Shown in pieces: positions 21,128 to 44,369 of a stretch of 64,000 bases of DNA. Each line of letters opens with the position of its first letter. Position 1 is the first letter of the stretch. The stretch is from positions 1 to 64,000 of the forward strand of contig NZ_FCOL02000001.1 in NCBI RefSeq assembly GCF_001544515.1, read 5' to 3'. A model generated the notes under the pieces. It worked only from the letters and a program-made list of their open reading frames with translations. It was not told where the DNA came from and did no database searches. Made by a program: the position numbers and the translations under genes. Origin of the DNA: Caballeronia terrestris (lineage in GTDB: Bacteria > Pseudomonadota > Gammaproteobacteria > Burkholderiales > Burkholderiaceae).

Positions 21128-21976
21128 TCAGCTCACCTTCTGGCGCTGTTTCTTCGCAGCCGGCAAGCTTGCCACGGGCGCCGCGGCCGCCGGCTTCGCC
21201 TTGAAATAGGGCGAGCTCAGCGTCGCTGCGGCCATGTCCGACGCCGCTTCGAGCAGCGCCGGCGCGAGTTCCGCGAGGCGCGACTCGGGCAATCGGCTCG
21301 TCGGCCCGGCGAGACTCACCACGCCCACCACGACACCCGTCACCGGATGGTGAATCGGCGCCGCCATCGACGTCATGCCGGGCTCATAGGTCTCGATCGC
21401 GATGCCGTAGCCGCGTCGGCGCGCGCCCTCGATGTCCTGCAGGAATTGCTGGATCGTCTTGGGCGCCTTCGGTCCGCTTTGTCCCGCCTTGCCCAGGCCG
21501 CCCTGCTTCGAGACGAGTTCGAGCGCTTCCTCATCCGACATCGACGCGAGCCACGCCTGCCCGCTCGCCGTGCAATGCAGCGGCGGCTGGCTGCCCATGT
21601 CGGGGTCGTAGCGCAGGCCCGACTTCGCGCCCTGCGCCTTGCCCACGAACGTAATGTGATTGCCCTCCACGACGCCGAGCCGCGCCAGTTCCCCCGACGC
21701 CGCCGCGAGCCGGTCGAGCACCGGCTGCGAGACGTCGAGGACGCCGCCGGTCGAGAGGTAAATGAGCGCGAGCGACACCAGCTTGAGCGCGAGCAGATAC
21801 TCGCCGTGCTCTTCGTCCTGGCGCACGTAGCCTTCGTCGATCAGCATCGACAGCAGCCGATGCGTACCGCTGCGAGGAATATTGAGTGTGTCGGCGATTT
21901 GCGCGAGTTGCATGCTTCCGCCGTTTTTCGCCAGCAACTCGATGATGCCCAGCGCGCGTTCCAGATTCCCTGCCAT
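21128..21976 (-). CDS. IclR-family transcriptional regulator
   Basis: The 282-residue protein has an N-terminal winged helix (about 1-65, LERALGIIELLAKNGGSMQLAQIADTLNIPRSGTHRLL region) and the IclR effector domain with HCTASGQAWLA near 130 and GYGIAIETYEPGMTSMAAPI near 195-215. The C-terminal 30 residues are an Ala/Pro/Lys-rich tail, an extension beyond the family core. It is convergent with the XRE gene (3-base gap between stops) and divergent from a small membrane-protein gene. No target cassette is evident from position, so it may act at a distance. Confidence 0.9.
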   Translation of the reverse strand: MAGNLERALGIIELLAKNGGSMQLAQIADTLNIPRSGTHRLLSMLIDEGYVRQDEEHGEYLLALKLVSLALIYLSTGGVLDVSQPVLDRLAAASGELARLGVVEGNHITFVGKAQGAKSGLRYDPDMGSQPPLHCTASGQAWLASMSDEEALELVSKQGGLGKAGQSGPKAPKTIQQFLQDIEGARRRGYGIAIETYEPGMTSMAAPIHHPVTGVVVGVVSLAGPTSRLPESRLAELAPALLEAASDMAAATLSSPYFKAKPAAAAPVASLPAAKKQRQKVS

Positions 21977-27527: not shown

Positions 27528-28794
27528 GCGCGCTCTCCCGCGCGGCCGTGCGCAGGAGCGCGGCCACCTGCTCGACCTGCCCGTCGGCACCGCGGATGCC
27601 CGCGAGCCGTTCGTGCACACGCACGGCGCGGCCATCGGGCAGACGTACCGCGTAGTCCTGCTCGCTCGTCGGCGCGTCGCCCCGCGCGACGGCGCTCCAC
27701 GTCGCCTGCACGATGCCGCGCTCGGCCACGTCGATGCGGTCGAGCCACTCGTCGAGACTGTTAACGCCGTGCACCGCCGGACCGAGCACCGCTGCCGCGC
27801 CTTCGCCCCACGTCGCGCGGCCGGTGACGGCGTCGTATTCGACGCTCGCGACGCCGACCGCCTCCAGCGTGCGCGCGTAGCGCAGGCGCCAGCCGCGGGC
27901 ATCGTCGAGCGCCTGGCGACGGCCCTCCGACAGCGCGCGCCCGAAGATCAGCACGACCGCCCACACGATGACGAAACCCTGCACCTCGACCACCGCCTCG
28001 CCCGGAAAATCCTCGATGACGTTGAACGGACCGCCGCCCTGCGCGCTGCGATAGATGATGAGCACGCAGCCGAGCAGCGTCGCGAGCGCGCCGCCGCGCG
28101 CGCCCCACAGGAGCGCGGTGGCGAGCAGGAACGGCATCGGAACGTAGGCGAGGGTTGCGGCGAGTCCGGCGAAGCGCTCGACGCTGTTGCCGGAGAACAC
28201 GATCAGCACGGCAGCGATGAACGCAAGGAAAGCGAGCGCGCCGCCAGCGAACTGCGGCATCGTCATGCCGCCGGAGCGCCGGATGCGAAAGCCGCGAAAC
28301 GCGACGACGAGCGGCGCGACGAGCAACAGGCCCACGGCGGTGGAGAATGTCCAGACGCGCCATTCGATCGCGAGATGCGCGCCCGGACGCAGCCAGCGCC
28401 ACAGCTCGACCGCCATCAGTCCGCCGAGCACCGAAGCGACGAGCGCGCCCGCGATCAGCAATCCCGCGCCGGCCGGGCCTTGCGGGTCGTGGCGCCCGAG
28501 CGTCGCAATCCACGCGCCCACGGCCATGCTGATCACCTCGATGCCGCCAAACACAAGCGCCGCCGGCACGCCGAGCGCGTGCGAAACCATGCCCCAGATC
28601 ACCGACGCGACACCCGCGCCCGCGAGGATCGCCGGCCACGACCAGCGCGCGCCGACGATGAGCGCCGAGTAAGTGACGCCGCTTGCGAGCCACACGGGAG
28701 TCGTCTCGGTCGCGGCATCCGCGAGCGATCGCGAGACGAACGCCGCCACTAACAACAGCATGCCTACCAATACGGCAAGACGAAGTTGTTGCAT
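27520..28794 (-). CDS. MASE1-type membrane sensor without output domain
   Basis: The 424-residue protein has about eight membrane segments over residues 5-295 in the pattern of a MASE1 sensor domain (TPVWLASGVTYSALIVGARWSWPAILAGA region; WRVWTFSTAVGLLLVAPLV). A cytoplasmic PAS-like segment follows (about 310-420: LEAVGVASVEYDAVTGRATWG, then VRLPDGRAVRVHERLAGIRGADG). MASE1 proteins normally end in a histidine kinase, GGDEF or EAL domain; none is present here and the frame ends normally. It overlaps the hydrolase/ACBP gene by 8 bases. AAGGGG precedes the ATG at 28794. It may signal through a partner protein or be a remnant that kept its sensory part. Confidence 0.78.
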   Translation of the reverse strand: MQQLRLAVLVGMLLLVAAFVSRSLADAATETTPVWLASGVTYSALIVGARWSWPAILAGAGVASVIWGMVSHALGVPAALVFGGIEVISMAVGAWIATLGRHDPQGPAGAGLLIAGALVASVLGGLMAVELWRWLRPGAHLAIEWRVWTFSTAVGLLLVAPLVVAFRGFRIRRSGGMTMPQFAGGALAFLAFIAAVLIVFSGNSVERFAGLAATLAYVPMPFLLATALLWGARGGALATLLGCVLIIYRSAQGGGPFNVIEDFPGEAVVEVQGFVIVWAVVLIFGRALSEGRRQALDDARGWRLRYARTLEAVGVASVEYDAVTGRATWGEGAAAVLGPAVHGVNSLDEWLDRIDVAERGIVQATWSAVARGDAPTSEQDYAVRLPDGRAVRVHERLAGIRGADGQVEQVAALLRTAARESAHG

Positions 28795-29018
28795 CGGTTT
28801 CCCCTTGGATGTCTCGCGCAGCATAGCGTGCGGTGGTCATCGCAGGCAACGGGCGTCGCGCCATGCGATTGGTGCGATTTGGCGAATTGTGATTCCATCT
28901 GATGAGGGTTTATACCGAGCCGCGCGACGCCTAGACTTGCCTTCATCGACGCAGCTACGGAAAACACGCAACACGATCCGACGCCCCGTTTTCACAATCG
29001 AATATTCGGAGGTTCATC

Positions 29019-29339
29019 ATGTTCAAGGCACTCATCCCCGCAGTCGTACTCGCTGCCGCACTCGCCGCTCCCACGTTCGCGAACGCACAGGACAACGGTC
29101 CCGTGACGCGTGCGCAGGTCAAGGCGGAACTGATCCAACTGGAACGCGCGGGCTATAGCCCGGCAAGCGATCGCGCCACCTATCCCGCGAACCTGCAAGC
29201 GGCTCAACGCCGTGTCGATGCGCAGAATGGCGTGGCGGCGGCGTCGTATGGTGCGTCGGTGGAAGGAAGCTCGGCTTCGGGCAACGGATCGGCGCGCGGT
29301 TTCGGCGCGGTAAATCCGGTGGACTACAGCCACTCGTAA
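29019..29339 (+). CDS. DUF4148 family exported protein
   Basis: The 106-residue precursor has a signal peptide (hydrophobic 5-20, probable cut after ANA near 23). The DUF4148 core reads VTRAQVKAELIQLERAGYSP then ATYPANLQAAQRRVDAQ (about 30-70), followed by a Gly/Ser-rich tail. The core is shared with the protein at 14105, but the tails differ. GGAGG is ideally placed before the ATG. The gene ends in a strong terminator. The family's role is unknown; envelope or stress roles have been suggested by its frequent induction. Confidence 0.88.
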   Translation: MFKALIPAVVLAAALAAPTFANAQDNGPVTRAQVKAELIQLERAGYSPASDRATYPANLQAAQRRVDAQNGVAAASYGASVEGSSASGNGSARGFGAVNPVDYSHS

Positions 29340-29360
29340 TCGCTTGGGTCAGCAACGCGA

Positions 29361-29396
29361 AACGCCCCAAACCGTATGACGGTTTGGGGCGTTTTT
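29361..29396 (+). terminator. Rho-independent terminator of DUF4148 gene
   Basis: A perfect 14-bp stem (29361-29374 with 29380-29393) around a TATGA loop is followed by TTT, 22 bases after the stop codon. The A-rich start of the stem lets it work in both directions, so it may also serve the convergent FixJ-like gene. Confidence 0.9.
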
Positions 29397-29440
29397 CCAT
29401 CCGAGCGAGGATAGGTCGTCGGGTTGATTGATAGCGAAGT

Positions 29441-30109
29441 TCAAGCCCGCGACGCACGCGGCCCAGAGTCCACCGGCAACCGCACCCCGAGCGCTTCGGC
29501 TTTCTTTACGAAATCAGCAAGCGAGCGAGCCCCCATCTTGCGCATCGCCTGCCCGCGATGAATCTTCACGGTGATCTCGCTCAGGTTCAATTCGCCCGCG
29601 ATCTGCTTGTTCATGAGCCCCGATACAACAAACGCCATGACTTCGCGTTCGCGCGGCGTCAGCGACTCGTAGCAGCGCCGCAAATCGGCCACCGACCGGT
29701 TCGCTTCGCGCCGCTCCTCGTCGCTCTTCAGCGCGTGCGCGACGGCATCGAGCATGTCCTGATCGCGAAACGGCTTGGCAAGGAAATCCTTTGCGCCGGC
29801 CTTCATCGCCTTCACGGTCATTGCGATGTCGCCGTGCGCCGTCATGAAGACGATCGGCAGGCCAAGCTGGCTCGCCGCGATCTGTTCCTGCACGGCAAGG
29901 CCGCTCTGCCCCTTCAGGCGCACGTCGAGGATCAGGCAACTCGGCATGTCCGGCATGTCGAACGCGAGGAACTCCTGCGCCGAGGCGAACGTCTCGACGC
30001 TCAGGCCCACGGAACGCAGCAGCGTGCTGACGGCCTGGCGCATCGATTCGTCGTCGTCCACGACGTAGACGATGGCGTTGCCCGCATTGCCCACCAGGTC
30101 ACTGCTCAT
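29441..30109 (-). CDS. FixJ/NarL-type two-component response regulator
   Basis: The 222-residue protein joins a receiver domain (about 12-128; acidic pocket DDDE at 18-21, phosphorylatable Asp in LDVRLKG, Thr in MTAHGD, Lys in AKPFRD) to a LuxR-type helix-turn-helix (LTPREREVMAFVVSGLMNKQ, then IAGELNLSEITVKIHRG). It is of the FixJ/TodT/StyR type. Its start overlaps the end of the histidine kinase gene by 11 bases, so the two are a coupled pair. The target promoters cannot be read from the sequence. Confidence 0.93.
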   Translation of the reverse strand: MSSDLVGNAGNAIVYVVDDDESMRQAVSTLLRSVGLSVETFASAQEFLAFDMPDMPSCLILDVRLKGQSGLAVQEQIAASQLGLPIVFMTAHGDIAMTVKAMKAGAKDFLAKPFRDQDMLDAVAHALKSDEERREANRSVADLRRCYESLTPREREVMAFVVSGLMNKQIAGELNLSEITVKIHRGQAMRKMGARSLADFVKKAEALGVRLPVDSGPRASRA

Positions 30110-31643
30110 GGCTTTCCCCCTCCTCGACGGGCAGGATGAACTGCAGCACCGCGCCGCCCTCTTCCGGCGACTCGGCCCAGATACGGCCGCCGTGCGCCTC
30201 CACGATCGAACGGCAGATCGACAATCCCATGCCCATGCCCTCGGCTTTGGTCGTAAAGAATGCGTTGAAGAGGCGGCTCACGTTGTCCTGGCTGATGCCG
30301 GCGCCCGAGTCCTGCACCATGACCTGCGCGTTGCCGGCGTCGTAGCGGCGCGTCGCGATCCGCACGCGGCGCGGGCCGGCGACGTCGCCCATCGCCTGCA
30401 CGCCGTTCATAATAAGGTTGATCAGCACCTGCTGCAGTTGCACGCGATCGCAGCTCACCGTCGGCGACGGCGACGCCAGTTCGATCCGCATGGCCACGCG
30501 ATGCCGCTCCAGTTCGCGCCGCACGAGTTCGATCGACTCCACCACGATCTCGTTCAAATCGAGTTTAGCCGGAAGCGGGTCGCGCTTTTTCGCCATCGAC
30601 CGGATCTGCTTGATCACGTCGCTCGCGCGCTTCGCGTCGCGGATCATCTGCGCGATCGACTGCTTCGCCTCCGCGAGATCGGGCGTCGGACGGTTCAGCC
30701 AGCGCAGCGACGCATCGCCGCACGTGACGATCGCCGCGATCGGCTGCGTGACTTCGTGCGCGATCGATGCGGCAAGTTCGCCGAGCATCGTGATACGCGT
30801 GACGTGCGCGAGTTCGGCGGTCGAGCGGGCGAGCGCTTCCTGCGCGCACTTGGTCTCGGTGACGTCCATCAGCGCGCCGACATATTCGAGCCCGCCCGCT
30901 TGCGGCGACGCGAGATGCGCGACGTAATGCACGTTCTTGACGCTGCCGTCCGGCATCAGGAGCCGGTGTTCGACCTCGACGAGCGGTGCGCCGGCAAGCG
31001 CCTGTTCATGCGCGCCGCGCACGAGGGCCATATCGTCGGGATGGGCGCGCGCGAGGATCGCATCGATCGACGGCACGACGTCGCGCCCGTAGTCGAAGAT
31101 GCGATACGCCTCGTCGGACCACCACATCACGCCGCTCGGCAGGCTGGTCGCGATGCTGCCGGTGCGGCTCAGGCGCTGCGCATCGAGCAGGAACGCCTCG
31201 CTGCGTTCGAGCGCGTATTCCGCCTGCTTACGCTCCTCGACTTGCTCGTGCAGTGTCGCGGTGGCAGCCAGGTTGCGCAGCGAGAGGATGGCGGTCGTCA
31301 CGATCGCGAGCAGGCTGACGCCGCAGCGTGCGAGCGCACCGTTCGTGTAGTGCACGTCGTGCGACAACACGAAGCCGATGAGCGTCAGCGCGATGCACCC
31401 CCACGCGACGGCGATCGTCGCGCGCCGGCTGCCCGTAGATGCAACCAGCAGCACCACGACGACGTAAAACACCGCGATCGCGATGTCGAGCGTCGGCAGC
31501 GAGTCGATCACGAACACCACGAGCGCGATCACGGCGGCGAGCCCGAACAGCACGCGGACGTCACGATGCACGGCGCGGGCGGCGGGCGGGCGATCTTTCA
31601 TCACGATCGCTTCAGCGAGTCGTCTAGCGGAGAACGATGGCAC
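30099..31643 (-). CDS. PAS-containing sensor histidine kinase
   Basis: The 514-residue protein (500 if translation starts at the second Met, 31601) has four hydrophobic segments over about 30-130, a coiled linker (LHEQVEERKQAEYALERSEAF), a PAS fold (about 165-285) and a kinase core. The phosphoacceptor His is in SIAHEVTQPIAAI. ATP-binding boxes include NLIMNGVQAM, DSGAGI, FTTKAEGMGMGL and a final VLQFILPV. The architecture is that of FixL/TodS-like kinases with a membrane region but no haem-binding PAS signature that I can identify. It is followed directly by its FixJ-type partner, and a single-domain receiver gene lies 180 bases upstream. Confidence 0.92.
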   Translation of the reverse strand: MPSFSARRLAEAIVMKDRPPAARAVHRDVRVLFGLAAVIALVVFVIDSLPTLDIAIAVFYVVVVLLVASTGSRRATIAVAWGCIALTLIGFVLSHDVHYTNGALARCGVSLLAIVTTAILSLRNLAATATLHEQVEERKQAEYALERSEAFLLDAQRLSRTGSIATSLPSGVMWWSDEAYRIFDYGRDVVPSIDAILARAHPDDMALVRGAHEQALAGAPLVEVEHRLLMPDGSVKNVHYVAHLASPQAGGLEYVGALMDVTETKCAQEALARSTAELAHVTRITMLGELAASIAHEVTQPIAAIVTCGDASLRWLNRPTPDLAEAKQSIAQMIRDAKRASDVIKQIRSMAKKRDPLPAKLDLNEIVVESIELVRRELERHRVAMRIELASPSPTVSCDRVQLQQVLINLIMNGVQAMGDVAGPRRVRIATRRYDAGNAQVMVQDSGAGISQDNVSRLFNAFFTTKAEGMGMGLSICRSIVEAHGGRIWAESPEEGGAVLQFILPVEEGESHEQ

Positions 31644-31823
31644 GATGGGTCGAGGACATAGGCGGTTGGAAGACGTTGGTTAGACGAATACCGGACGCCT
31701 GTTCGCCGGAATCGCCGTCATCGCAGACAAGATTCAAGCAGCGGCGGCCGATGCTTTCAAATGCCTGAAACTATGCGCGATCCTGCTTCGCCCGGGTACT
31801 GATTTTTCCTGAAACTTCGATCG

Positions 31824-32186
31824 TTAGCGCAGTTTCTCCAGACATTGGGATACGACGGCGCCATCCACCGGCTTGCTGAGCAGGCACACGGCGCCGCCTT
31901 CCAGCGCCTGCCTGCGCACCGATTCCGACGCGAACGCCGTGATGAAGACGATCGGCAGCGCATGGCCCATCTCGCGCAGCCGCTGCTGCATTTGCAGGCC
32001 GGTCATGCCGGGCATCTGGATGTCGGAGATGACGCAGGCCACTTCGTCCAGCCGGTTCGATTCCAGAAAGGATTCGGCGGACGCATAAATACAGACGTCC
32101 CAGCCGAGCGACCGGAGCAGACTGGAAGTCGCGACGCGAACGGATTCGTCATCATCGACCACGGAAACTAATGAACGGGTATGCAA
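31824..32186 (-). CDS. Single-domain response regulator
   Basis: The 120-residue protein is only a CheY-like receiver: acidic pocket DDDE at 11-14, phospho-Asp in VISDIQMPG, Thr in ITAFAS and Lys in LSKPVDG. There is no output domain. It lies 180 bases upstream of the histidine kinase on the same strand and its receiver resembles that of the FixJ-type regulator, so it may act as a phosphate sink or adaptor for the same kinase. The first codon appears to be TTG at 32186; no ATG gives a complete receiver. Confidence 0.85.
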   Translation of the reverse strand: MHTRSLVSVVDDDESVRVATSSLLRSLGWDVCIYASAESFLESNRLDEVACVISDIQMPGMTGLQMQQRLREMGHALPIVFITAFASESVRRQALEGGAVCLLSKPVDGAVVSQCLEKLR

Positions 32187-32459: not shown

Positions 32460-34214
32460 TCACTGCGTCGTTTTGGCGCGGTTCATGGCGGAGACATCCG
32501 CGACCGTTTCATCCTCACGCGCCTTGGCAAGCGCGATCCCCGCGAGATAACCGAACGTCATCGCCGGCCCGAGCGTGATGCCGCCACTCGGATAGCAGCC
32601 ACCCATCATGCTCGCCGCGTCGTTGCCGACTGCGTAGAGGCCGCGAATCGGCGTATGCGCTTCGTCGAGCACGCGCGATTGCGCATCGGTCGAAAGGCCC
32701 GCGAAGGTGCCGAGACTCCCGGGCAGCAGCTTGACCGCATAGAACGGCCCATCGACGATCGGTGCAACGCACGGGTTCGGCCCGTGTTGCGCGTCGCCCT
32801 GCACGCGGTTGTAGGGCGTCGAACCCTTGTGGAATTGCGGATCGAAGCCGTCCTTCGCGTAACCGTTGTACGCCGCGACCGTTTCCGCGAGCCCTTGCGG
32901 ATCGATGCCGCATTGCGTCGCGAGTTCGTGCAGCGTGTTCGCCTGCTTCAAATAGCCGGAACGCCGATACGGACCGACGGGAAACGGAAACGGCTTCGAA
33001 AACCCGAGTCCGTAGCGCCGCTGAAAGCGATGATCGCAGACGAGCCACGCGCACACCTCCTCGCCCGGCTGTGTCGTGCCGATGAGCGCGCCCATGAAGT
33101 CGTGATACGACGACGCCTCGTTGACGAAGCGCTTGCCACCGCGCGTCACGGCGATCACGCCTGGCTTCGCGCGCTCGATCAGATGCGGGAACGCGGCTTC
33201 TGGCTGCCCCTTGCCCCTCGGCACGAGCGACACCGGCGCCCACGCGGCGGGCGTGTCGAGCGAGTCGTCGAAATGCGCGCCGATCGCTTCGCCCATGCGG
33301 ATGCCGTCGCCGGTGTTCGCGCGCGGCGCCGCCGACCAGTGCTCGCGCCCCGTCGGCGTATAAGCGAACGTCTGCGCGCGCCGCGCAGCGTCGTGCGGAT
33401 AACCGCCGCATGCGAGCACCACGCCCCGCGCCGCACGCACTTCATGCAGCACGCCTTCGATCTCGACGCGCGCACCCGTCGCTCGATCGCCATCGCGCAG
33501 GATCTCGACGGCCTTTGCCCGCGTGCGCAAATCGACGCCGCGATCCGCCGCCGATTTCAGCAGCCGCGCGATGAGCGCGTTGCCGTTGACGAGATGCATC
33601 GAGCGGCCGTAGCGCAGCTTGTGCCCCGCGAACGCTGCAAGACGCCGCGTCACGTGCCACGCCGAACGCAGCGAACGCGTCGCGTTGAAGAAATGCGCGA
33701 GGTCCTGTCCCGAGCCGATCGCCATGCCCTTGATCGTCACTTCGGCAAGCGGTGGGCGCAGCTTGTCGATCAGAGACCCGAGTTCGCGGCCATCGAACGG
33801 CATCGCGCACACCGAGCGGCCGCCCTTCGTCGCGCCGTTCGACGTATGGAAGTCGGGAATGCGATTGCCGTCGACGAAACGCATCGACGTGTTGCGCTCG
33901 AAGAACTCGATCATCTTCGGACCGTGTTCGAGCAGCGCATCGACCTTTTCGGCGTCGAACTGCGCGCCGAGCTCGTTGCGCAGATAGGTGCGCGGCGCGT
34001 CGATCTCCTCGACGATGCCAGCGCGCGTCGCGAGCGGATTGCGCGGAATCCACATCCAGCCGCCCGACCACGCGGTCGTGCCACCGAACACGTCTTCCTT
34101 TTCCGCGACCATGACGCGCAGGCCGCGCGTGGCGGCGGTCACGGCCGTCGACAGTCCGCCTGCGCCGGAGCCGAGCACCAGCACATCGCATTCGAGAATC
34201 GGTTCGAGCTTCAT
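32460..34214 (-). CDS. KstD-like FAD-dependent dehydrogenase (fumarate reductase/3-oxosteroid dehydrogenase superfamily)
   Basis: The 584-residue flavoprotein opens with the dinucleotide motif VLVLGSGAGGLSTA (11-24) and the GGTTAWSGG loop (44-52), and ends with a CYPSGGITLGPAMTFGYLAG segment. That arrangement is typical of flavin enzymes that desaturate ketones, such as 3-oxosteroid delta-1-dehydrogenase, or of fumarate reductase-like enzymes. No haem or Cys cluster is present. It is transcribed divergently from a shikimate-dehydrogenase-like gene across a region with a TGGAAT/ATTCCA palindrome. No sterol genes lie nearby, so I infer a cyclic ketone of hydroaromatic type as the substrate. This is inference from context and superfamily. 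Confidence 0.8.
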   Translation of the reverse strand: MKLEPILECDVLVLGSGAGGLSTAVTAATRGLRVMVAEKEDVFGGTTAWSGGWMWIPRNPLATRAGIVEEIDAPRTYLRNELGAQFDAEKVDALLEHGPKMIEFFERNTSMRFVDGNRIPDFHTSNGATKGGRSVCAMPFDGRELGSLIDKLRPPLAEVTIKGMAIGSGQDLAHFFNATRSLRSAWHVTRRLAAFAGHKLRYGRSMHLVNGNALIARLLKSAADRGVDLRTRAKAVEILRDGDRATGARVEIEGVLHEVRAARGVVLACGGYPHDAARRAQTFAYTPTGREHWSAAPRANTGDGIRMGEAIGAHFDDSLDTPAAWAPVSLVPRGKGQPEAAFPHLIERAKPGVIAVTRGGKRFVNEASSYHDFMGALIGTTQPGEEVCAWLVCDHRFQRRYGLGFSKPFPFPVGPYRRSGYLKQANTLHELATQCGIDPQGLAETVAAYNGYAKDGFDPQFHKGSTPYNRVQGDAQHGPNPCVAPIVDGPFYAVKLLPGSLGTFAGLSTDAQSRVLDEAHTPIRGLYAVGNDAASMMGGCYPSGGITLGPAMTFGYLAGIALAKAREDETVADVSAMNRAKTTQ

Positions 34215-34283
34215 TGGCTTGTTTGCCCTTCGGTTGATAGCGCCTCAAGGCACTTTCGATGTCTATGGATCTTTGTTTGTTTT

Positions 34284-34298
34284 TGGAATGCTATTCCA
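34284..34298. promoter_or_regulatory. Palindrome between divergent flavoprotein and SDH-like genes
   Basis: TGGAATGCTATTCCA is a perfect inverted repeat with a 3-base centre, followed by a further TGGAAT half at 34305. AATTGT/ACAATT arms occur at 34383-34399. These are candidate regulator sites in the 234-base divergent promoter region. Confidence 0.45.
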
Positions 34299-34448
34299 CA
34301 TATCTGGAATTTGCAACGCTAACGCTTGAAAACCGTCTGTTTTTAGATCGTGGTCGAAACGCCAAGAGCGGCGTTAGAATCAAATTGTTGAACACAATTC
34401 CAATTTCAACTAGAGTTCGTCTCAATACAAATCCTGGAGGCAAGACAC

Positions 34449-35279
34449 ATGACCGAAGACAACGCTTTTAACGCATCGCTCGATGCGGGCCTGAGCGGCG
34501 CGACGCGCCTGTATTTCATCGTCGGCGATCCGATCGCGCAGGTGCGCTCGCCCGCCGGCGTGACCGCGGCGTTGCGCGCGGCCGGCCGCGACGCGATCGT
34601 CGTTCCCGCGCACGTCGCGCCGGACGACCTGCCCGCGTTCTTCACGGCCGTCACAGCGATGCGCAACGTCGACGGCGTGATCATCACCGTGCCGCACAAA
34701 TTCAGCGCGGCGCAGTTCTGCGCTTCGTTCACCGATCAGGCCGCGTTCCTCGGCGCGGTCAACACGCTGCGCCGCAACACCGACGGCACCTGGCACGGAA
34801 CGATGTGCGACGGCACGGGTTTCGTGACCGCACTCGCCGATGCCGGCTGCGAGCTGAAGGGCAAGCGCGCGCTCCTGGTCGGCGCGGGCGGCGCGGGCTC
34901 GGCGATCGGCCACGCGCTCGTCAACAAGGGCGTGGCCTCGCTCGCAGTACGCGACAACGACACCGAGCGCACCGACGCGCTCGTCGCGCGGCTGAACGCG
35001 CTGAAGCTGGGAAGCGTGAGCATCGCTGATGGCGATGTGCGCGCGGAAACCTACGACGTCGTCGTGAACGCGTCGCCGATGGGCATGCGCGCCGACGATC
35101 CGCTGCCGATCGACGTCTCGCGGCTCGCGGCGACGACCTTCGTCGGAGACGTGGTGACCAAGCCGCCGCTCACGCCGTTCATCGAAGCGGCCCGCGCGCG
35201 CGGCTGCCCGACCGTCACCGGCACGCAGATGTTCGGGCGCGTGTGCGACCGCATCGTGGAGTTTTTGATCGAGGTGTAA
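34449..35279 (+). CDS. Shikimate-dehydrogenase-like oxidoreductase (AroE superfamily), altered substrate site
   Basis: The 276-residue protein has the AroE fold signatures: catalytic Lys84 (VPHK), Asn105 (GAVNT), Asp121 and the NAD(P) loop GAGGAG at 145-150. In E. coli AroE, Ser14 and Ser16 of the SKS segment bind the shikimate carboxylate; here the equivalent is QVRS, with Val32 replacing the first Ser while Ser34 is kept. The NTDG motif around the catalytic Asp is MCDG. It is thus not the housekeeping enzyme and may act on a different hydroaromatic acid. GGAGG lies before the ATG. It is divergent from the KstD-like gene and upstream of a ShiA-like transporter gene on the other strand. Confidence 0.85.
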   Translation: MTEDNAFNASLDAGLSGATRLYFIVGDPIAQVRSPAGVTAALRAAGRDAIVVPAHVAPDDLPAFFTAVTAMRNVDGVIITVPHKFSAAQFCASFTDQAAFLGAVNTLRRNTDGTWHGTMCDGTGFVTALADAGCELKGKRALLVGAGGAGSAIGHALVNKGVASLAVRDNDTERTDALVARLNALKLGSVSIADGDVRAETYDVVVNASPMGMRADDPLPIDVSRLAATTFVGDVVTKPPLTPFIEAARARGCPTVTGTQMFGRVCDRIVEFLIEV

Positions 35280-35386
35280 GGCCGACCCATCGCTTGGACT
35301 ACCTGCGAATGCGGGGTTTCGCACGTTCGTGCGGAAGACTAGATTTGTGACTCCCGAATGTGCCGCACGCGGCAAGGAGACAAGCG

Positions 35387-35626
35387 ATGGACGGAACTCC
35401 AGTCGAATACAAGGGATGGGGACTCACTCCCATCGTCTCCCGCACACCAGACGCCTTTCTCGTCGTGCTGCTCGTGGAAAAGCCGAACGGCATCCGGCGC
35501 GCGATGGGTCCCCTCGGGAAGTTCGGATCGGCCGCGGCCGCGTGTTCTTTCGCGATCGAATACGGCAAGGCAACCGTCGACGGATTGCCGCCTCCGGGCC
35601 CGAGTCAGGAAGCAGCGGGAAAATAG
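35387..35626 (+). CDS. Small soluble hypothetical protein, 79 residues
   Basis: The ATG at 35387 follows AAGGAG closely. The product starts MDGTPVEYKGWGLTPIV and contains FAIEYGKATVDG. It has no membrane segment, and its beta-rich pattern looks like a small single-fold protein, but I cannot name the family with confidence. A strong bidirectional hairpin follows. The gene sits between the SDH-like gene and the MFS gene without an obvious role in the cassette. Confidence 0.65.
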   Translation: MDGTPVEYKGWGLTPIVSRTPDAFLVVLLVEKPNGIRRAMGPLGKFGSAAAACSFAIEYGKATVDGLPPPGPSQEAAGK

Positions 35627-35658
35627 CCACGCGCGACGCGTGGCTCGATACCAAAAGA

Positions 35659-35685
35659 AAAGGCCACGCATCGAGCGTGGCCTTT
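35659..35685. terminator. Bidirectional terminator
   Basis: AAAGGCCACGC (35659-35669) pairs with 35675-35685 around an ATCGA loop, giving A-rich and T-rich ends in both directions. It separates the small gene at 35387 from the convergent MFS gene. Confidence 0.85.
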
Positions 35686-35708
35686 GCATTTACAACACTA
35701 CTTTTCTA

Positions 35709-37118
35709 TCAGGCAGACGCCTTCGCCAGCTTCTCTTCGGCGACCGTCTGTCCGCGCAGCCGGTCGTACTCGGCCTTGTCGAGCGGAACGGCGTCGGGTT
35801 CGCCGAGCTGGCTCATCGGCACACGATACGTCTCCCGTGCGCTCCAGGCAGCGAGCGCCGCGATGATCGTGACAGCCAGGGTGATCGAACCGACCGTCAG
35901 CGGGATGTTCGTCGATCCGGGCGGTGCCACCAGTGCGAAGAGCGCGGGCAACAAAGCCGTGATCAGCGTGCCGACGTTCTGCGAGATCGCCATCGCCGAG
36001 ACGCGGGAGCGCGTCGGGAACAGTTCCGGGTAGAAGCTCGGGAAGATCGCGTTATAGCCCTGGTACACGATGCCCCACATCAAGAGCGACATCACGATCG
36101 CAAACGGCACGTTGTGGATGCTGATCGCGTAGAGGTAGCCGAACGAGAGCAGCCCCGAGCCGATTGCGCCGAAAATCACCGGAATCCGGCGGCCAATGCG
36201 GTCCGACAAGTCGCCGATGTACGGAATCACGAGCACCGCGAGGATGTTGCCGGCGACCGGAATCCACAGGTACACGCTCTTGTGAAAGCCGATGCCGTAC
36301 GAAGCCTGCACCGCGTAAGCCGCCCCGAAGATCGTCGCGACGACCGGGATCACGTTCATCAGCGCCATGCAGACGACGCGGAACATGTCCTTCGAGCTGT
36401 ATTTGAACGCTTCCGCGATCGGCGATTTCGGCACTTCCGCTGCAACGGCTTCCTTCGAGAAGGCCGGCGTTTCGTCGACTTCACGGCGGATGATGTAGCC
36501 CGCGAACAGCACGCCAGCGGAGAGCAGGAACGGAATGCGCCAGCCCCACGAATTGAACATGTCTTCCGGCATGAAGTACGCGAGCGGCAGGAAGATCGCG
36601 GCGGCCAGGATCTGGCCGGCCTGCACGCCCTGCAGCGTAAAGCTTGCGTAGTAGCCGCGTCGGCCGAAAGGCGCGTGTTCGAGAATCATCGAGCTCGCGC
36701 CGGAGATTTCGCCGGCGACCGCGAAGCCCTGGGCCAGGCGCAGCACGACGAGCAGCGCCGGAGCGAGCATGCCGATCTGGTGATACGTCGGCAGGAGACC
36801 AACCGCCATCGTCGATGCGCCCATCAGGAACATGCAGACCAGCAGTACGGTTTTACGGCCGTGCGTGTCGCCCCAGTGACCGAGGACGAACGCGCCGATC
36901 GGACGCGCCACGTAACCTACGCCATACGTCGCGAGCGACGCGACGATCGCGATCTTCGGGTCGCCCGACGGGAAAAACAATTGCGGGAAGATCAGCGCGG
37001 CAGCCTGCGCATAGATAAAGAAGTCGTAATACTCGAGCGCCGAGCCGATCCAGCCGCTCGCGGTGGCCTTCTTCGCCTGACGGCCGCCGTGCTCTTCGTG
37101 GTCCATGGAACCAGCCAT
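35709..37118 (-). CDS. MFS transporter of metabolite:H+ symporter type (ShiA-like)
   Basis: The 469-residue protein starts with the pattern ATASGWIGSALEYYDFFIYA, typical of the metabolite:proton symporter group that includes ShiA, KgtP and ProP. It also carries GHWGDTHGRKTVL and RLAQGFAVAGEISGA. Twelve membrane segments are predicted. It is flanked by two SDH-like genes, so uptake of shikimate, quinate or a related ring acid is likely. GGAGAC precedes the ATG at 37118. A copy of a PcaR-like motif (37327-37339) lies about 210 bases upstream, the same sequence as beside the IclR gene, which suggests common control. Confidence 0.88.
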   Translation of the reverse strand: MAGSMDHEEHGGRQAKKATASGWIGSALEYYDFFIYAQAAALIFPQLFFPSGDPKIAIVASLATYGVGYVARPIGAFVLGHWGDTHGRKTVLLVCMFLMGASTMAVGLLPTYHQIGMLAPALLVVLRLAQGFAVAGEISGASSMILEHAPFGRRGYYASFTLQGVQAGQILAAAIFLPLAYFMPEDMFNSWGWRIPFLLSAGVLFAGYIIRREVDETPAFSKEAVAAEVPKSPIAEAFKYSSKDMFRVVCMALMNVIPVVATIFGAAYAVQASYGIGFHKSVYLWIPVAGNILAVLVIPYIGDLSDRIGRRIPVIFGAIGSGLLSFGYLYAISIHNVPFAIVMSLLMWGIVYQGYNAIFPSFYPELFPTRSRVSAMAISQNVGTLITALLPALFALVAPPGSTNIPLTVGSITLAVTIIAALAAWSARETYRVPMSQLGEPDAVPLDKAEYDRLRGQTVAEEKLAKASA

Positions 37119-37326
37119 GTTTGTCTCCAGTTTTGATGAATGGGTTGAATCCTGACTTGCTTGATCTGCGGCAGAACGGCGCGCCAGCGACACGGCAAAA
37201 CGGGCCGGACGGGACTTCGATTGCCTCATCCGGCGACGCTTTCCGGTGCTTCGTTGATGGGTCGCGTCGGGGTGAGTGGAGAATATGAGACGGCGTTGCG
37301 GCGCACAATGCTCTTTGTAAAAAATT

Positions 37327-37339
37327 GCGCGATTATCGA
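37327..37339. promoter_or_regulatory. PcaR-like box upstream of MFS gene
   Basis: The minus strand reads TCGATAATCGCGC, preceded by GT (the plus-strand sequence continues AACGC). This resembles the PcaR/PobR-type IclR operator core GTTCGATAATCGCAC as I remember it. An identical 13-mer stands at 38355. Confidence 0.55.
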
Positions 37340-37401
37340 ACGCACATGTCCGATTAACGATCGATTTTCGGGTTAGCACTAACCAGGCAGATTGCTTGCG
37401 G

Positions 37402-38265
37402 TCACCGTGCCAGCGCTTCCGGCACGAGCAAATCACGCAGGTACGAATCGTCGGCGCGGACGGACTCCGCCAGCCCCGGGTAGCCGAAGAAGTCGAGATA
37501 GAACGGCGTCTGCAGGATCAGCATGTCGAAGCCCGGTTCCGCGACCAGGCCACGGGAGCGCGCGGCGCGCAGGAGTGGCGTCGGCTGGTTCTTCATCAGG
37601 ATGTCGCAGAGCGCGGCGTGATCCGCGATGCGCGTGACGTCCACCGGCAGAGGATCAGTCGAGCTGAGCCCGAGCGGCGACGCGTTCACGATCACGTCGA
37701 AACCGGCCGGATCGTTCGACGGCGCATCGCTCGCGGCGATGCCGAAGTCGCGCCGCAAAAGCGCCGCGAGCTGCCGTGCCTTTTCCCGATCAGGATCGAA
37801 GAGCGCGATTTCGCCGACGCCGGCCGCCGCCAGCGCCGTCGTGACCGCCGATGCCGCGCCGCCCGCGCCGATCACGAGCACGCGCCGCCCCGCGTAGGCG
37901 ATGCCCGCGCGATCGAGCGAGCGCATGAAGCCCAGGCCGTCGAAGAGTTCGCCTTCGAGTTCGCCCGCCGCGTTGCGCCGCACGGCGTTGACCGCGTTCG
38001 CCGCGCGCGCCGCCGCCGACGGACGATCGACGATGGCCGTCGCCGCCGCCTTGTGCGGAATCGAAAGCGAGACGCCGCCGACCGTCGGCGATTCGAGCAA
38101 CGCACGCAGTGTCGCTTCGAGCTGTGCGGCGGGCACGCGCAGCGGCACCATCGCGGCATCGATGCCGTGGCGCGCGAAAATCGAGTTGAAGACTTCGGGC
38201 GCGCGCACCTGATCGATCGGATCGGCGATGCAGAAGAAAAGTCGGGTCGTGCCGGTGATGTGCAT
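37402..38265 (-). CDS. Second shikimate-dehydrogenase-like protein, carboxylate-binding serines lost
   Basis: The 287-residue protein keeps the AroE catalytic Lys72 (IPHK), Asn93 and Asp109 and the nucleotide loop GAGGAA (133-138). The Ser-x-Ser that holds the shikimate carboxylate in AroE is replaced by QVRA: Val20 and Ala22. Both serines are therefore missing, more divergent than the paralogue at 34449. The catalytic Asp lies in LFDG instead of NTDG. The substrate is probably a hydroaromatic compound that differs from shikimate at C1. The start at 38265 (MHITGTT) gives the standard family N-terminus. It is upstream of the ShiA-like transporter and divergent from the IclR gene. Confidence 0.82.
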   Translation of the reverse strand: MHITGTTRLFFCIADPIDQVRAPEVFNSIFARHGIDAAMVPLRVPAAQLEATLRALLESPTVGGVSLSIPHKAAATAIVDRPSAAARAANAVNAVRRNAAGELEGELFDGLGFMRSLDRAGIAYAGRRVLVIGAGGAASAVTTALAAAGVGEIALFDPDREKARQLAALLRRDFGIAASDAPSNDPAGFDVIVNASPLGLSSTDPLPVDVTRIADHAALCDILMKNQPTPLLRAARSRGLVAEPGFDMLILQTPFYLDFFGYPGLAESVRADDSYLRDLLVPEALAR

Positions 38266-38354
38266 GATGTCGGGGTCCAGTGGGGTCGGGATCGGATGGA
38301 GCGAAGCATAGGAGCCGCACCAACGCCCGGACAACGCGAACCTCAGCAACACGA

Positions 38355-38367
38355 TCGATAATCGCGC
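38355..38367. promoter_or_regulatory. PcaR-like box between SDH-like and IclR genes
   Basis: TCGATAATCGCGC at 38355-38367 is identical to the minus-strand motif at 37327-37339. It sits 41 bases before the IclR start and 90 bases before the divergent SDH-like start, where an IclR regulator could control both. Confidence 0.55.
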
Positions 38368-38407
38368 ATACTGTTTCACTCATCGCACGAAATGAGGGTT
38401 ACTCCCG

Positions 38408-39178
38408 ATGACCAAGCCACCGCTCGACAAGCGTGACTGGATCGCCGGCCTGGAGAAAGGGCTCGCGATCCTCGAAGCATTCGACGACCAGCACGCCCGC
38501 ATGACGCCGACGCAAGCCGCGATGCGCACCGGCATGACGCGCACTGCCGCGCGGCGTTATCTGCTGACGCTCGAGCATCTCGGCTACGTGCAGACGGACG
38601 GGAAGCTCTTCGGGCTGACGCCGCGCGTGCTGCGCGTCGGCTGGTCGTATTTCGATTCGGCGCGACTGCCGCGTACGGTCCAGCCGTATCTGCAGCAACT
38701 AAGCGCGACGCTCAACGAATCGGTCTACGTGAGCGTGCTCGACGAGTGGGAACTGGTCTTCATCGCGCGCAACGGCACCTCGCGCGTGATGACGACGGGC
38801 TTCGTGCTCGGCGCGCGCGTGCCGGCGCCGCTGACGTCGCCGGGGGTCGTGCTGCTTGCGTACAAGCCCGATGAGGACGCCGTGCGGCAATGGCTGGAAG
38901 GCACTGAACTCAAGCCGTTCACGCCGCACACGATGACCAACAAGACGAAGCTGCACGAGAAGATCCGTCAGGCGCGCGCGGATGGCTTCGCCGTGATCGA
39001 GGAACAGTTGCAGATCGGAGTACGGGGTATCGCGGTGCCAATGAAGGACCGGCACGGGCAAGTGGTCGCGGCGCTGAGCACGAACATGGTGATCGGCAAG
39101 GAGACGACCGAGGCGGCGCTCGCGCGCGTGTTGCATCCGCTGCAAGAGACCGCGCTCGCGATGCTGAATGTGATTTAG
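38408..39178 (+). CDS. IclR-family regulator of the PcaR/PobR type
   Basis: The 256-residue protein begins with DWIAGLEKGLAILEAFDDQHARMTPT, the typical start of PcaR/PcaU/PobR regulators of protocatechuate and 4-hydroxybenzoate genes. The winged helix (about 10-75, with TRTAARRYLLTLEHLGYV) is followed by the effector domain ending GVRGIAVPMKDRHGQVVAALS. It is divergent from the SDH-like gene at 37402. A 13-bp motif resembling the PcaR site occurs in its promoter and upstream of the transporter. A hydroaromatic or aromatic acid is the likely effector. Confidence 0.88.
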   Translation: MTKPPLDKRDWIAGLEKGLAILEAFDDQHARMTPTQAAMRTGMTRTAARRYLLTLEHLGYVQTDGKLFGLTPRVLRVGWSYFDSARLPRTVQPYLQQLSATLNESVYVSVLDEWELVFIARNGTSRVMTTGFVLGARVPAPLTSPGVVLLAYKPDEDAVRQWLEGTELKPFTPHTMTNKTKLHEKIRQARADGFAVIEEQLQIGVRGIAVPMKDRHGQVVAALSTNMVIGKETTEAALARVLHPLQETALAMLNVI

Positions 39179-39435: not shown

Positions 39436-40611
39436 ATGGCTTCGATTGCCCCTTCCGCCTGCCTGCCCCGCGACCTCGACGACGCCCTTCTGATCGGCCG
39501 CGTGTGGCGCGCGGCGCCCGTCGACGGCCCTTCGGTCGTGGCCGTGCGCCGGGGCGAAGTGTTCGACATCACGTCGAGCGCGCCCACCACCGCGGACCTC
39601 TTCGATCGCGCCGACATGCTCGACATCGCGCGCAATGCGCCGGGCGAATCGCTCGGACGCGTGGAAGCGTTGATCGAGGGCGCGTTGAAGGGTTCGTCTT
39701 CGGCGGTGCAATTGCTCGCGCCCTGCGACGTGCAGGCGATCAAGGCGTGCGGCGTCACGTTCGCCGTGAGTTTGCTGGAGCGCGTGATCGAGGAGCAGGC
39801 CGGCGGCGACGCCAGCAAGGCCGAGGAAGTGCGCGCGACGATCCACAAGCTGATCGGCGCGGATCTATCGCAGATCAAGCCGGGGTCGGAAGCAGCGGCG
39901 GCGCTCAAGGCCGAGCTCGAACGGCGCGGCGCGTGGTCGCAATACATGGAGGTCGGCATCGGGCCGGATGCGGAGGTGTTCACGAAGTCGCAACCGATGT
40001 CGTCGGTGGGGTTCGGAGCGAGTGTTGGGCTGCATCCGATGTCGGAGTGGAACAATCCGGAGCCGGAGATCGTGCTGGCGGTGAACGCGCGCGGCGAGAT
40101 CGTCGGGGCGACGCTGGGTAATGACGTGAACCTGCGCGATATCGAAGGGCGCAGTGCGCTGTTGCTCGGCAAGGCGAAGGACAACAACGGTTCTTGCGCG
40201 ATTGGCCCGTTCGTGCGGCTCTTCGATGAGCGCTTCACGCTGGATACCGTGCGTGAGTCGCGCGTGAGTCTCGAGATTGCCGGCACCGATGGCTTCGTGC
40301 TCGACGGCGTGAGCCACATGCGTGAGATCAGCCGCGATCCGACGGATCTCGTCGGGCAGACGCATGGCGCGCATCATCAATACCCTGATGGCTTCATGCT
40401 GTTCCTCGGCACGATGTTCTCGCCGATCAAGGATCGCGATGCGCCCGGAGGTGGGTTCACGCATCACGCGGGCGATGTGGTAACGATCGCTACGCCGGCG
40501 ATCGGGGCGCTCGTCAATCCGGTCGCGCAGTCGACGGAGATTCCTGCGTGGGATTTTGGCGTGCGCGCGCTTTACGCGAGTCTTGCGCGGCGCGGGCTGT
40601 TGAAGGGCTGA
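39436..40611 (+). CDS. Fumarylacetoacetate hydrolase (FAH) superfamily enzyme, sugar-acid dehydratase type
   Basis: The 391-residue protein carries the FAH fold with the metal-binding block NNPEPEIVLAVNARGEI in its central part and YPDGFMLFLGTMFSP near 330. The length is greater than that of LRA6-type hydrolases (about 280) and matches the group of FAH-family 2-keto-3-deoxypentonate dehydratases known from Herbaspirillum and Azospirillum (AraD1-like). That reaction makes alpha-ketoglutarate semialdehyde from 2-keto-3-deoxyarabinonate or -xylonate. It stands alone on the plus strand. The assignment to dehydratase rather than hydrolase is from memory of family lengths and is moderate. The start was put at ATG 39436. 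Confidence 0.75.
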   Translation: MASIAPSACLPRDLDDALLIGRVWRAAPVDGPSVVAVRRGEVFDITSSAPTTADLFDRADMLDIARNAPGESLGRVEALIEGALKGSSSAVQLLAPCDVQAIKACGVTFAVSLLERVIEEQAGGDASKAEEVRATIHKLIGADLSQIKPGSEAAAALKAELERRGAWSQYMEVGIGPDAEVFTKSQPMSSVGFGASVGLHPMSEWNNPEPEIVLAVNARGEIVGATLGNDVNLRDIEGRSALLLGKAKDNNGSCAIGPFVRLFDERFTLDTVRESRVSLEIAGTDGFVLDGVSHMREISRDPTDLVGQTHGAHHQYPDGFMLFLGTMFSPIKDRDAPGGGFTHHAGDVVTIATPAIGALVNPVAQSTEIPAWDFGVRALYASLARRGLLKG

Positions 40612-42972: not shown

Positions 42973-44298
42973 TCAGTCGCTTGCGCCTTCGCGGAAGTAC
43001 AGGCGTTTTGGCAAGCCCCACACGATCAGCATGGCGCCCAGCAGGCACGCCACCGCGATTGCGTAGAGACCGGGCGTCGCGCTGCCGGTGATCATCTTGA
43101 CCTTGCCAACCATGTACGGGCTGATGATCCCGCCGAACTGCCCGACCGAGTTGATCAGCGCGATCCCGCTCGCTGCCGCGATGCCGGACAGGAAGCGCGT
43201 CGGCAGGATCCAGAAGAGGCCGAGCGACGTGATGATGCCGGTCGCCGCGATCGTCAGGCCGATTACGAGCATCACTGTATTGCCCGGAAAGAACCCGCAC
43301 AGCACGTAACCGACCGCGCCCGCGAATGCGCACGCGCCCAGGTGCCAGCGCCGCTCGCCGGTGCGGTCCGAGTGCTTGCCGATCAGGATCATGCCGATGC
43401 CCGCCACCGCGTAAGGCAGCATCGAGATCAGGCCGATCGCGAAGGTATCGGTGGTGCCGGCGGTCTTCACGAGCTGCGGCATCCAGAAGACGAGGCCGTA
43501 GATGCCCATCGCGAGGAACAGGTAGATCACGGCCATCACGAGCGTGACCGGCTCCTTGAACGCAGCCTTCAGCGAATGCACTTCGCCGACCTTCGGATCG
43601 CGTGCGAGCTGCTCGGCGAGCGCGCGTTTCTCGGCGGCATCGAGCCATTTCGCGTCGTCGATCTTGTCGTCGACCATGAACAGCACGATGATCCCGAGCA
43701 CCACCGACGGGATGCCTTCGAGCAGGAAGAGCCATTGCCAGCCGGCGAGGCCGTTGAGACCGTCGCAGAACTTCATGATCGCGCCCGACAGCGGGCTGCC
43801 GATGATCCCGCACAGCGCGATCGATGCCATGAAGAACGAGTTGATGCGTCCGCGCCGCGACGACGGAAACCACTTCGTGAAGAAGTAGAGCGCGCCCGGC
43901 ACGAAGCCCGCTTCGAGCGCGCCGATCAGAAAGCGCAGCAGGTAGAACCACGTATCGCTTTTCACGAACATCATCGCCGCCGATGCGATGCCCCACGTGA
44001 TCATGATCCGTGCGATCCAGCGTTTCGCGCCGACGCGATGCAGGATGATGTTGCTCGGCACCTCGAAGAGGAAGTACCCGACGAAGAACACGCTTGCGCC
44101 GAAGCCGTAGACGGCATCGCTGAAGCCGAGCTCGCTCTGCATCTGCAGCTTCGCGAAGCTGATGTTGATGCGGTCGAGGTACGAGAACACGAAACAGGCC
44201 ACGAACAGCGGCACGAAGCGCCAGAACACCTTGCGGTAGAGCTGGGCGTCGTCGTGCGCGATGGCCGCGTGCGGTGCGGTGGGCGATACGGTTTCCAC
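42973..44298 (-). CDS. MFS transporter, anion:cation symporter type
   Basis: The 441-residue protein has twelve predicted membrane segments and the YLDRINISFAKLQMQSELGFSDAVYGFGA signature shared with tartrate, phthalate and sugar-acid importers. It is downstream of the SDR and FAH-hydrolase genes on the same strand, so it probably imports the sugar acid or deoxy-sugar acid they consume. GTG 44298 is the probable start, with CAGGAG eight bases upstream. The 158-base gap to the SDR gene contains two hairpin-forming repeat copies, which may uncouple transporter expression from the enzymes. Confidence 0.88.
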   Translation of the reverse strand: METVSPTAPHAAIAHDDAQLYRKVFWRFVPLFVACFVFSYLDRINISFAKLQMQSELGFSDAVYGFGASVFFVGYFLFEVPSNIILHRVGAKRWIARIMITWGIASAAMMFVKSDTWFYLLRFLIGALEAGFVPGALYFFTKWFPSSRRGRINSFFMASIALCGIIGSPLSGAIMKFCDGLNGLAGWQWLFLLEGIPSVVLGIIVLFMVDDKIDDAKWLDAAEKRALAEQLARDPKVGEVHSLKAAFKEPVTLVMAVIYLFLAMGIYGLVFWMPQLVKTAGTTDTFAIGLISMLPYAVAGIGMILIGKHSDRTGERRWHLGACAFAGAVGYVLCGFFPGNTVMLVIGLTIAATGIITSLGLFWILPTRFLSGIAAASGIALINSVGQFGGIISPYMVGKVKMITGSATPGLYAIAVACLLGAMLIVWGLPKRLYFREGASD

Positions 44299-44314
44299 GT
44301 TTTTAGTCTCCTGT

Positions 44315-44340: not shown

Positions 44341-44369
44341 CGTACTCTCGTCCCACGCAACTTGTTGCG

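Follow-up and report, generated by a model that had tools for sequence, protein, structure and literature searches.

The window analysed here is a stretch of 64,000 nucleotides of Caballeronia terrestris (contig NZ_FCOL02000001.1, positions 1 to 64,000). Between positions 32,460 and 39,178 it carries two genes of the shikimate dehydrogenase (SDH) superfamily, here called SDH1 and SDH2, together with genes for a flavoprotein (FAD2), a transporter and an IclR regulator. All five genes are present with the motifs and coordinates first described in an earlier note on this DNA, which had joined them into a single pathway. They are listed below with a second regulator and with the module, 1 or 2, to which we assign them.

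32460..34214, minus strand: FAD2, predicted KstD/ChcC2-type FAD-dependent ring-ketone desaturase, 584 aa, module 2
34215..34448: divergent intergenic region between FAD2 and SDH1, 234 bp, judged by coordinates and sequence possibly a shared promoter/operator
34449..35279, plus strand: SDH1, AroE-superfamily dehydrogenase, 276 aa, predicted NAD+-linked, module 2
35709..37106 (likely start), minus strand: MHS-family MFS transporter, likely a hydroaromatic-acid importer
37402..38265, minus strand: SDH2, AroE-superfamily dehydrogenase of the quinate/shikimate-catabolic group, 287 aa, module 1 (likely start 38265, not 38379; home-made gene caller)
38408..39178, plus strand: PcaR/PcaU/PobR-type IclR regulator, divergent from SDH2, module 1
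21128..21976, minus strand: second IclR regulator, about 10 kb from FAD2, of the type accompanying the SDH1/FAD1/FAD2/TIM barrel/NIPSNAP cluster described below

Compared at codon level with their counterparts in C. humi and C. arationis, the five genes prove to be under purifying selection (dN/dS 0.03–0.21; FAD2 0.08–0.14), indicating that both halves of the gene group are maintained. Given this selection and the recurrence of the neighbourhoods in other genera, the gene grouping is not a matter of chance. We give about even confidence to the reading that the window is a junction of two catabolic modules, one for quinate/shikimate (module 1) and one for the aromatisation of reduced hydroaromatic acids (module 2).

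SDH1 and SDH2 belong to the shikimate dehydrogenase superfamily, matching Shikimate_dh_N (PF08501) with 63.3 and 58.4 bits (cut-off 27) and carrying catalytic Lys65 and Asp102; both stay below the AroE equivalog model TIGR00507 (141.7 and 137.5 bits, cut-off 200.2). Residue positions here follow E. coli AroE numbering. Alignment confirms that Lys65, Asn86 and Asp102 are retained in both proteins, along with the QVRS/QVRA and MCDG/LFDG variants noted earlier (DPIAQVRSP and TMCDG in SDH1, DPIDQVRAP and ELFDG in SDH2). Position 14, a serine in AroE, is Val in both, and Ser16 is kept in SDH1 and replaced by Ala in SDH2. The AroE-type pocket (Ser, Ser, Asn, Tyr, Gln at positions 14, 16, 59, 215, 244) reads V, S, I, T, V in SDH1, as judged by alignment only, and V, A, S, M, Q in SDH2. 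The SDH1 pattern is highly uniform: among 114 SDH1-type proteins, some genomes being counted twice, V14, T61, K65 and D102 occur in all 114, S16 in 113, N86 in 112, T215 in 108, I59 in 105 and V244 in 103. In 111 of the 114 the cofactor position is occupied by Asp, which suggests that SDH1-type enzymes, including SDH1, use NAD+. Among SDH2-type proteins, V14 is found in 11 of 12, with position 16 being Ala in nine, Leu in two and unreadable in one. RifI2-like proteins of a third kind (C42 type), many of which adjoin AroQ or QuiC, have Phe or Val at position 14 in 15 of 18 cases, and Ala (9), Ser (5) or Thr (3) at position 16. The earlier note had read serine loss as pointing to a substrate other than shikimate. 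SDH-family genes in QuiC/AroQ rows have likewise lost Ser14 and in many cases Ser16, so that this feature is compatible with activity on shikimate or quinate. Loss of the AroE carboxylate serines is by itself no proof that these substrates have been lost.

The two proteins share 38% identity and fall into different clades in a tree of 55 chosen SDH-family proteins of at least 240 aa, which was built quickly, carries no bootstrap and has several long branches. The SDH1 clade (20 rows) and the separate SDH2 clade (8 rows) each have a support of 99 in the Shimodaira–Hasegawa-like approximate likelihood ratio test (SH-aLRT). The SDH2 clade joins the C42 type (12 rows, SH-aLRT 96) at 91, with true AroE outside. 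The closest solved relative of SDH1 (37%) and SDH2 (33%) is PDB entry 4k28, which we take to be RifI2 of Pseudomonas putida. It shares with SDH1 the QV-(K/R)-S motif and the predicted NAD+ Asp; unlike either protein, it lies outside both clades on a long branch. No close orthologue of 4k28 was found in 274 genomes of the class, where three places in two genomes reach 36–37%, one of them being SDH1 itself. A search with SDH1 against phage sequences added nothing. The SDH groups mix genome loci and named contigs, so that some genomes enter twice; SDH1-type proteins number 114 in the residue table (at least 225 aa) and 115 in the neighbour table (at least 200 aa).

Seven places in the C. terrestris genome match PF08501 (contig C1 twice, C2, C33, C42, C43 and C129). 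The gene on C2 has the HSKSP motif of true AroE, and the RifI2-like gene on C42 has a row of transporter genes and a CoA-transferase-like gene nearby. On C43 (L077:3231-10982), an SDH2-like paralogue (QVRAP, 49%) stands beside a gallate dioxygenase (800 bits, cut-off 412) and the CHA aldolase LigK (406 bits, cut-off 304.5); our gene calls put these genes in the same order in C. humi (L178).

Module 1 looks like quinate/shikimate catabolism, a system of known kind, in its gene neighbourhood and in the types of its regulator and transporter. This catabolism employs an SDH/YdiB-type dehydrogenase, AroQ, QuiC1/QsuB and an MHS/ShiA transporter, and yields protocatechuate. The regulator at 38408–39178 scores 266.4 bits in TIGR02431 (pcaR_pcaU), just under the cut-off of 284.75, and excerpts of a survey (PMC8222616) name IclR regulons for quinate/shikimate and 4-hydroxyphenylpyruvate-type genes. 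The closest SDH2 orthologue outside the window's own arrangement (75%) is found in Caballeronia SBC1 (L187), in a row called here as IclR – SDH2 – MHS-like transporter – 3-oxoadipate:acetyl-CoA acetyltransferase (435 bits, cut-off 350) – QuiC1 (904 bits in NF042435, below the cut-off of 1200). Its IclR is 87% identical to that of the window and its transporter only 32% to the window MHS protein. More distant SDH2-like genes lie in L176, with an IclR, a QuiC-like TIM barrel, MHS, a second SDH and an AroQ-like gene, and in L177, with an IclR, a second SDH, a QuiC1-type gene and MHS. L188 holds, by annotation, a CoA-transferase pair, pcaF, two SDH genes, a lyase and a carboxymuconolactone decarboxylase, followed by a QuiC1-type gene and MHS. 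The combination of SDH, QuiC-type gene, transporter and regulator that marks a quinate/shikimate operon is thus seen in L187, L176, L177 and L188. Across the 11 SDH2-type loci besides the window, three of which have the window's arrangement (C. humi twice, C. arationis once), MHS occurs in eight, a PcaR-type IclR in eight and a QuiC-type gene in four; two, the C43 locus and its C. humi copy, adjoin gallate genes instead. The 18 C42-type loci hold QuiC-type genes in 11, AroQ in five and MHS in ten.

Unlike in such operons, no QuiC-type gene lies in the window, and SDH2 lacks both Ser14 and Ser16. A profile search of the genome contigs with the QuiC model gave no match on C1, which holds the window, and eight on other contigs: two near full length on C4 and C11 (885 and 764 bits, below the cut-off of 1200), three of the C-terminal domain only and three partial N-terminal ones. 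PcaH is also encoded in the genome (354.7 bits, cut-off 296.4), with an adjoining PcaG-sized match. The earlier argument, that there is no dehydroshikimate dehydratase and that the quinate route is therefore excluded, is right for the window itself and fails genome-wide, given the two QuiC1-like genes and the QuiC1 in the row of the 75% SDH2 orthologue. In module 1, the MHS transporter would import quinate/shikimate-type acids, SDH2 would oxidise them with NAD+ to the 3-dehydro acid, and QuiC1 encoded elsewhere in the genome would turn this into protocatechuate for the beta-ketoadipate pathway. The window MHS protein could, judging by its relatives, serve either module, since it is 75–77% identical to those of L177, L185 and L188, loci with QuiC-type genes, and 73–78% identical to transporters within SDH1/FAD clusters (L039, L150, L164, L167).

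SDH1 belongs to a different and recurrent set of genes: SDH1, two KstD-type flavoproteins (FAD1 and FAD2), a QuiC-like TIM barrel protein, a NIPSNAP protein and an IclR regulator. Neighbours were collected from flanks of up to 10 kb around the best 80 of 446 SDH1 relatives in a scan of named genome contigs; several loci are short contigs, making partner counts lower bounds, Derxia is represented twice (L150, L152), and SDH1 itself was missed by the gene caller in three of the 80. FAD1 accompanies SDH1 in 67 loci, FAD2 in 63, the TIM barrel in 60, NIPSNAP in 55, the cluster IclR in 52, an SDR in 29 and a Gfo/Idh/MocA protein in 26. At least one flavoprotein is present in 71 loci and neither in nine, and FAD1, FAD2, TIM barrel and NIPSNAP occur jointly in 51. 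Flavoproteins were labelled by whichever of three references they matched best in BLAST, those of 450 aa or less being left unlabelled. A 'QuiC' count of 42 among the 115 SDH1 loci mostly reflects the TIM barrel matching the QuiC query and was not used. The set occurs in Burkholderiaceae, Comamonadaceae, Derxia, Zobellella and Paracoccus. In the phylum, SDH1 exceeds 340 bits in five of 398 genomes; of three loci outside the family, L212 has the full set, L214 SDH1, FAD1 and TIM barrel, and L213 SDH1 alone, and no partner was seen beside a fourth, weaker match (L215). SDH1, FAD1, FAD2 and IclR occur without TIM barrel or NIPSNAP in L148, L150, L152 and L159. Among 200 family genomes, from which both counts are assumed to be drawn as the genome labels agree, SDH1 at 68% or more is found in 25 and the NIPSNAP orthologue in 20, with 19 having both and six SDH1 only; the twentieth NIPSNAP genome has SDH1 at 52%. 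This co-occurrence has a Fisher probability of 1.9e-20 with related genomes treated as independent.

In C. arationis (L090), the cluster is intact, and two other called genes separate it from the MHS – SDH2 – IclR row that follows. In C. terrestris module 2 is split, as it is in C. humi: contig C20 carries FAD1, Gfo/Idh/MocA, SDR, NIPSNAP, TIM barrel, an ABC importer and a further IclR, to which the IclR at 21128–21976 is 78% identical. For the substrate-binding protein of this importer, PDB matches give no ligand. In the window, the cluster IclR and FAD2/SDH1 stand about 10 kb apart, with other genes (22731–32162) in the place that TIM barrel and NIPSNAP occupy in C. arationis.

FAD2 is a PF00890 protein that exceeds the cut-off of the generic NCBIfam model PRK06134 'FAD-dependent oxidoreductase' (854 bits, cut-off 747). 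Its highest-scoring model with a named reaction is the 4-oxocyclohex-2-ene-1-carboxylate 5-dehydrogenase ChcC2 (NF053677, 521 bits, below the cut-off of 900), in which FAD2 proteins score 521–527 and FAD1 407 bits. Three of four KstD catalytic positions, which we take to be Tyr119, Tyr318, Tyr487 and Gly491, are kept in the window FAD2 (Tyr318, Tyr487, Gly491), with Tyr119 replaced by Phe as in 65 of 73 FAD2 proteins. A third KstD-type flavoprotein (C1:354433-356121, L086; 51% to FAD2) lies in the same genome beside a small NIPSNAP-like protein, an SDR and, named by eye, an MFS transporter and a probable AraC-type regulator; this sister module recurs in L111, L123 and L132.

The TIM barrel protein was compared at eight of the ten QuiC active-site positions given in excerpts of PMC7442255, all but Leu97 and Ser206. 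Arg64, Glu134, Asp165, His168, Gln191, Arg210 and Glu239 are retained in 54 of 54 proteins, Leu136 is replaced by Met, and Ser206 appears to be Ala, judged by its place next to Arg207. The protein has a single domain and scores 31.9 bits in NF042435 (cut-off 1200), thus having neither the model score nor the two-domain build of QuiC; the two-domain QuiC1-like genes of the comparison likewise score below 1200.

From gene content, conservation, catalytic residues and co-occurrence we infer each reaction of module 2, the order of its steps, its substrate and its product. The substrate would be a hydroaromatic acid related to quinate/shikimate but more reduced. SDH1 would oxidise a ring hydroxyl to a ketone with NAD+, FAD1 and FAD2 would introduce C=C bonds next to the ketone (alpha,beta-desaturation), and the QuiC-like TIM barrel would remove water where a beta-hydroxyl is present, upon which the ring would tautomerise to a phenol, a hydroxybenzoate and probably protocatechuate. 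NIPSNAP, Gfo/Idh/MocA and SDR are unexplained by this route. Because the SDH1/FAD1/FAD2 cluster is conserved and desaturase residues are retained, the best reading is that an alcohol is oxidised and the resulting ketone then desaturated; this sequence of steps, first suggested for both AroE-like proteins, gains from the second KstD-type flavoprotein for SDH1/FAD2 and does not carry over to SDH2. The same logic operates in the chc route of Sinomonas cyclohexanicum, which according to excerpts of PMC9795900 (citing Yamamoto 2021) proceeds via an alcohol, a 4-oxo acid and two desaturases to 4-hydroxybenzoate. Module 2 would likewise place two consecutive desaturases after the ring alcohol-to-ketone step on the way to a hydroxybenzoate. 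It differs in its AroE-family alcohol dehydrogenase, in flavoproteins below the ChcC1/ChcC2 cut-offs, in the added QuiC-like dehydratase and in the lack of a P450 among annotated or recognised neighbours, P450 families not having been searched specifically.

The product probably enters the beta-ketoadipate pathway as protocatechuate. In L212, the series SDH1 – TIM barrel – FAD2 – FAD1 – NIPSNAP – IclR adjoins pcaF (675 bits, cut-off 597), and members of the pcaJ/scoB and pcaI/scoA families, both over their cut-offs, are also present. The Paracoccus set (L040) adjoins a 3-oxoadipate:acetyl-CoA acetyltransferase (496 bits, cut-off 350) and, truncated at the sequence end, a QuiC1-type gene. QuiC1-type genes (810 and 613 bits, below the cut-off) and another SDH lie within 10 kb in Derxia (L150) and Zobellella (L156). 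Zobellella has two tripartite transporters, next to the SDH1/FAD set and next to QuiC1 respectively; their binding proteins are 72% identical and their TctA proteins 97% identical across the 291 residues available, a resemblance that suggests substrates of similar chemistry. Together these neighbours, single loci in a few genera, point to protocatechuate and the beta-ketoadipate pathway.

Two observations weigh against this destination of the product. Four Caballeronia genomes (G081, G108, G185, G191) keep SDH1 without, at the thresholds used, a FAD1/FAD2-type flavoprotein or NIPSNAP orthologue, and an acyl-CoA dehydrogenase occurs in seven and a CoA-transferase in six of the 80 SDH1 loci, mostly in Comamonadaceae. 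The loci with both are L151, L153, L157, L160, L163 and L168; L149 has the dehydrogenase only. In Rhodoferax (L147), the sole such locus, an SDH2-like gene follows SDH1 and FAD1 inside the cluster, which blurs the division and means that the modules may cooperate. With L147 as the exception, separate clades and mostly separate neighbourhoods, SDH2-like genes occurring with QuiC-type, MHS and PcaR-type IclR genes, led us to reject the default view of all five genes as one pathway.

It is unlikely, in our view, that both SDH proteins serve ordinary quinate/shikimate breakdown, one acting on quinate and the other on shikimate, with the flavoprotein having a side activity on an analogue. Tandem SDH genes in L176, L177 and L188, the proximity of SDH1 clusters to QuiC1-type genes in Derxia, Zobellella and Paracoccus, a Rhizobium SDH1-clade gene lacking flavoproteins and sitting with a QuiC1-type gene (L041), and the SDH2-like gene of L147 would fit this. 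However, the SDH1 clade is separate from the SDH genes of the L176, L177 and L188 rows, both flavoproteins accompany SDH1 in at least 51 of 80 loci, and the SDH1 pocket differs at Asn59, Tyr215 and Gln244. Module 2 does share a dehydratase homologue with this catabolism and lies near QuiC1-type genes in the three genera; unlike it, module 2 adds two desaturases, the route as excerpted from PMC7442255 having no ring desaturase.

Rather less probable is degradation of the ring acid without aromatisation, in which desaturation and dehydration would lead to hydrolytic ring opening or CoA-thioester beta-oxidation. In L151, the only locus whose copies were scanned, the CoA-transferase resembles FadX (332 bits) and the acyl-CoA dehydrogenase resembles acryloyl-CoA reductase (277 bits) and cyclohexane-1-carbonyl-CoA dehydrogenase (233 bits), all below cut-off; against this, such genes are confined to six and seven of the 80 loci, and other loci adjoin pcaF/J/I, the 3-oxoadipate enzyme or QuiC1. 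A cyclitol or sugar-acid pathway, with the TIM barrel as an IolI/epimerase-like isomerase and Gfo/Idh/MocA acting like an inositol dehydrogenase, appears more doubtful still: an IolI match favours it, but Gfo is found in only 26 of 80 loci, the TIM barrel retains QuiC Arg64 and Arg210 in 54 of 54, the cluster adjoins aromatic-acid genes in some loci, and we know of no role for KstD-type desaturases in cyclitol breakdown. That FAD2 is a steroid desaturase or a fumarate reductase with no connection to the SDH genes, activities named earlier as a refutation, is very improbable and was rejected on model scores: the closest solved relative of FAD2 by sequence is the 3-oxosteroid 1-dehydrogenase 7p18, but FAD2 lies below the 3-ketosteroid cut-offs (PRK12844, 455 bits, cut-off 789; PRK07843, 427 bits, cut-off 788), has ChcC2 as its top named-reaction model and is linked conservedly to SDH1, and no steroid-pathway genes were recognised beside it, the flanks not having been searched family by family.

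Module 2 is thus apparently a conserved and undescribed variant of hydroaromatic aromatisation. No published description of an SDH-like gene accompanied by a QuiC-like gene and a pair of KstD-type desaturases was found among the matches listed in the open-licence literature (titles and abstract openings). Reduced relatives of quinate and shikimate arise as anaerobic fermentation products of plant matter. We tentatively put forward, with confidence short of even, a specific form of the module 2 proposal: an undescribed aerobic pathway that would convert saturated hydroxy-cyclohexanecarboxylates into protocatechuate by means of an NAD+-linked AroE-family dehydrogenase, a pair of KstD-type desaturases and a QuiC-like dehydratase. 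In nature it would act on compounds such as dihydroshikimate or 3,4-dihydroxycyclohexanecarboxylate from anaerobic plant fermentation. If so, one 'shikimate dehydrogenase' clade and two 'FAD-dependent oxidoreductase' groups, generically named in the annotated records covered here, would gain a function, the beta-ketoadipate pathway a desaturase-based entry from saturated ring acids, and soil bacteria a new way to use plant-derived carbon.

Other genes of the window lie around these modules. Near the cluster IclR, 18810–20309 encodes an L-piperidine-6-carboxylate dehydrogenase (808.6 bits, cut-off 730). Downstream of the PcaR-type regulator, 39436–40611 encodes an FAA-hydrolase-like protein (22.0 bits, Pfam cut-off 23.9), which we place in neither module, and 42973–46065 holds an MFS transporter, an SDR and a protein resembling 2,4-didehydro-3-deoxy-L-rhamnonate hydrolase (440 bits, cut-off 500), which may belong to a sugar-acid pathway.

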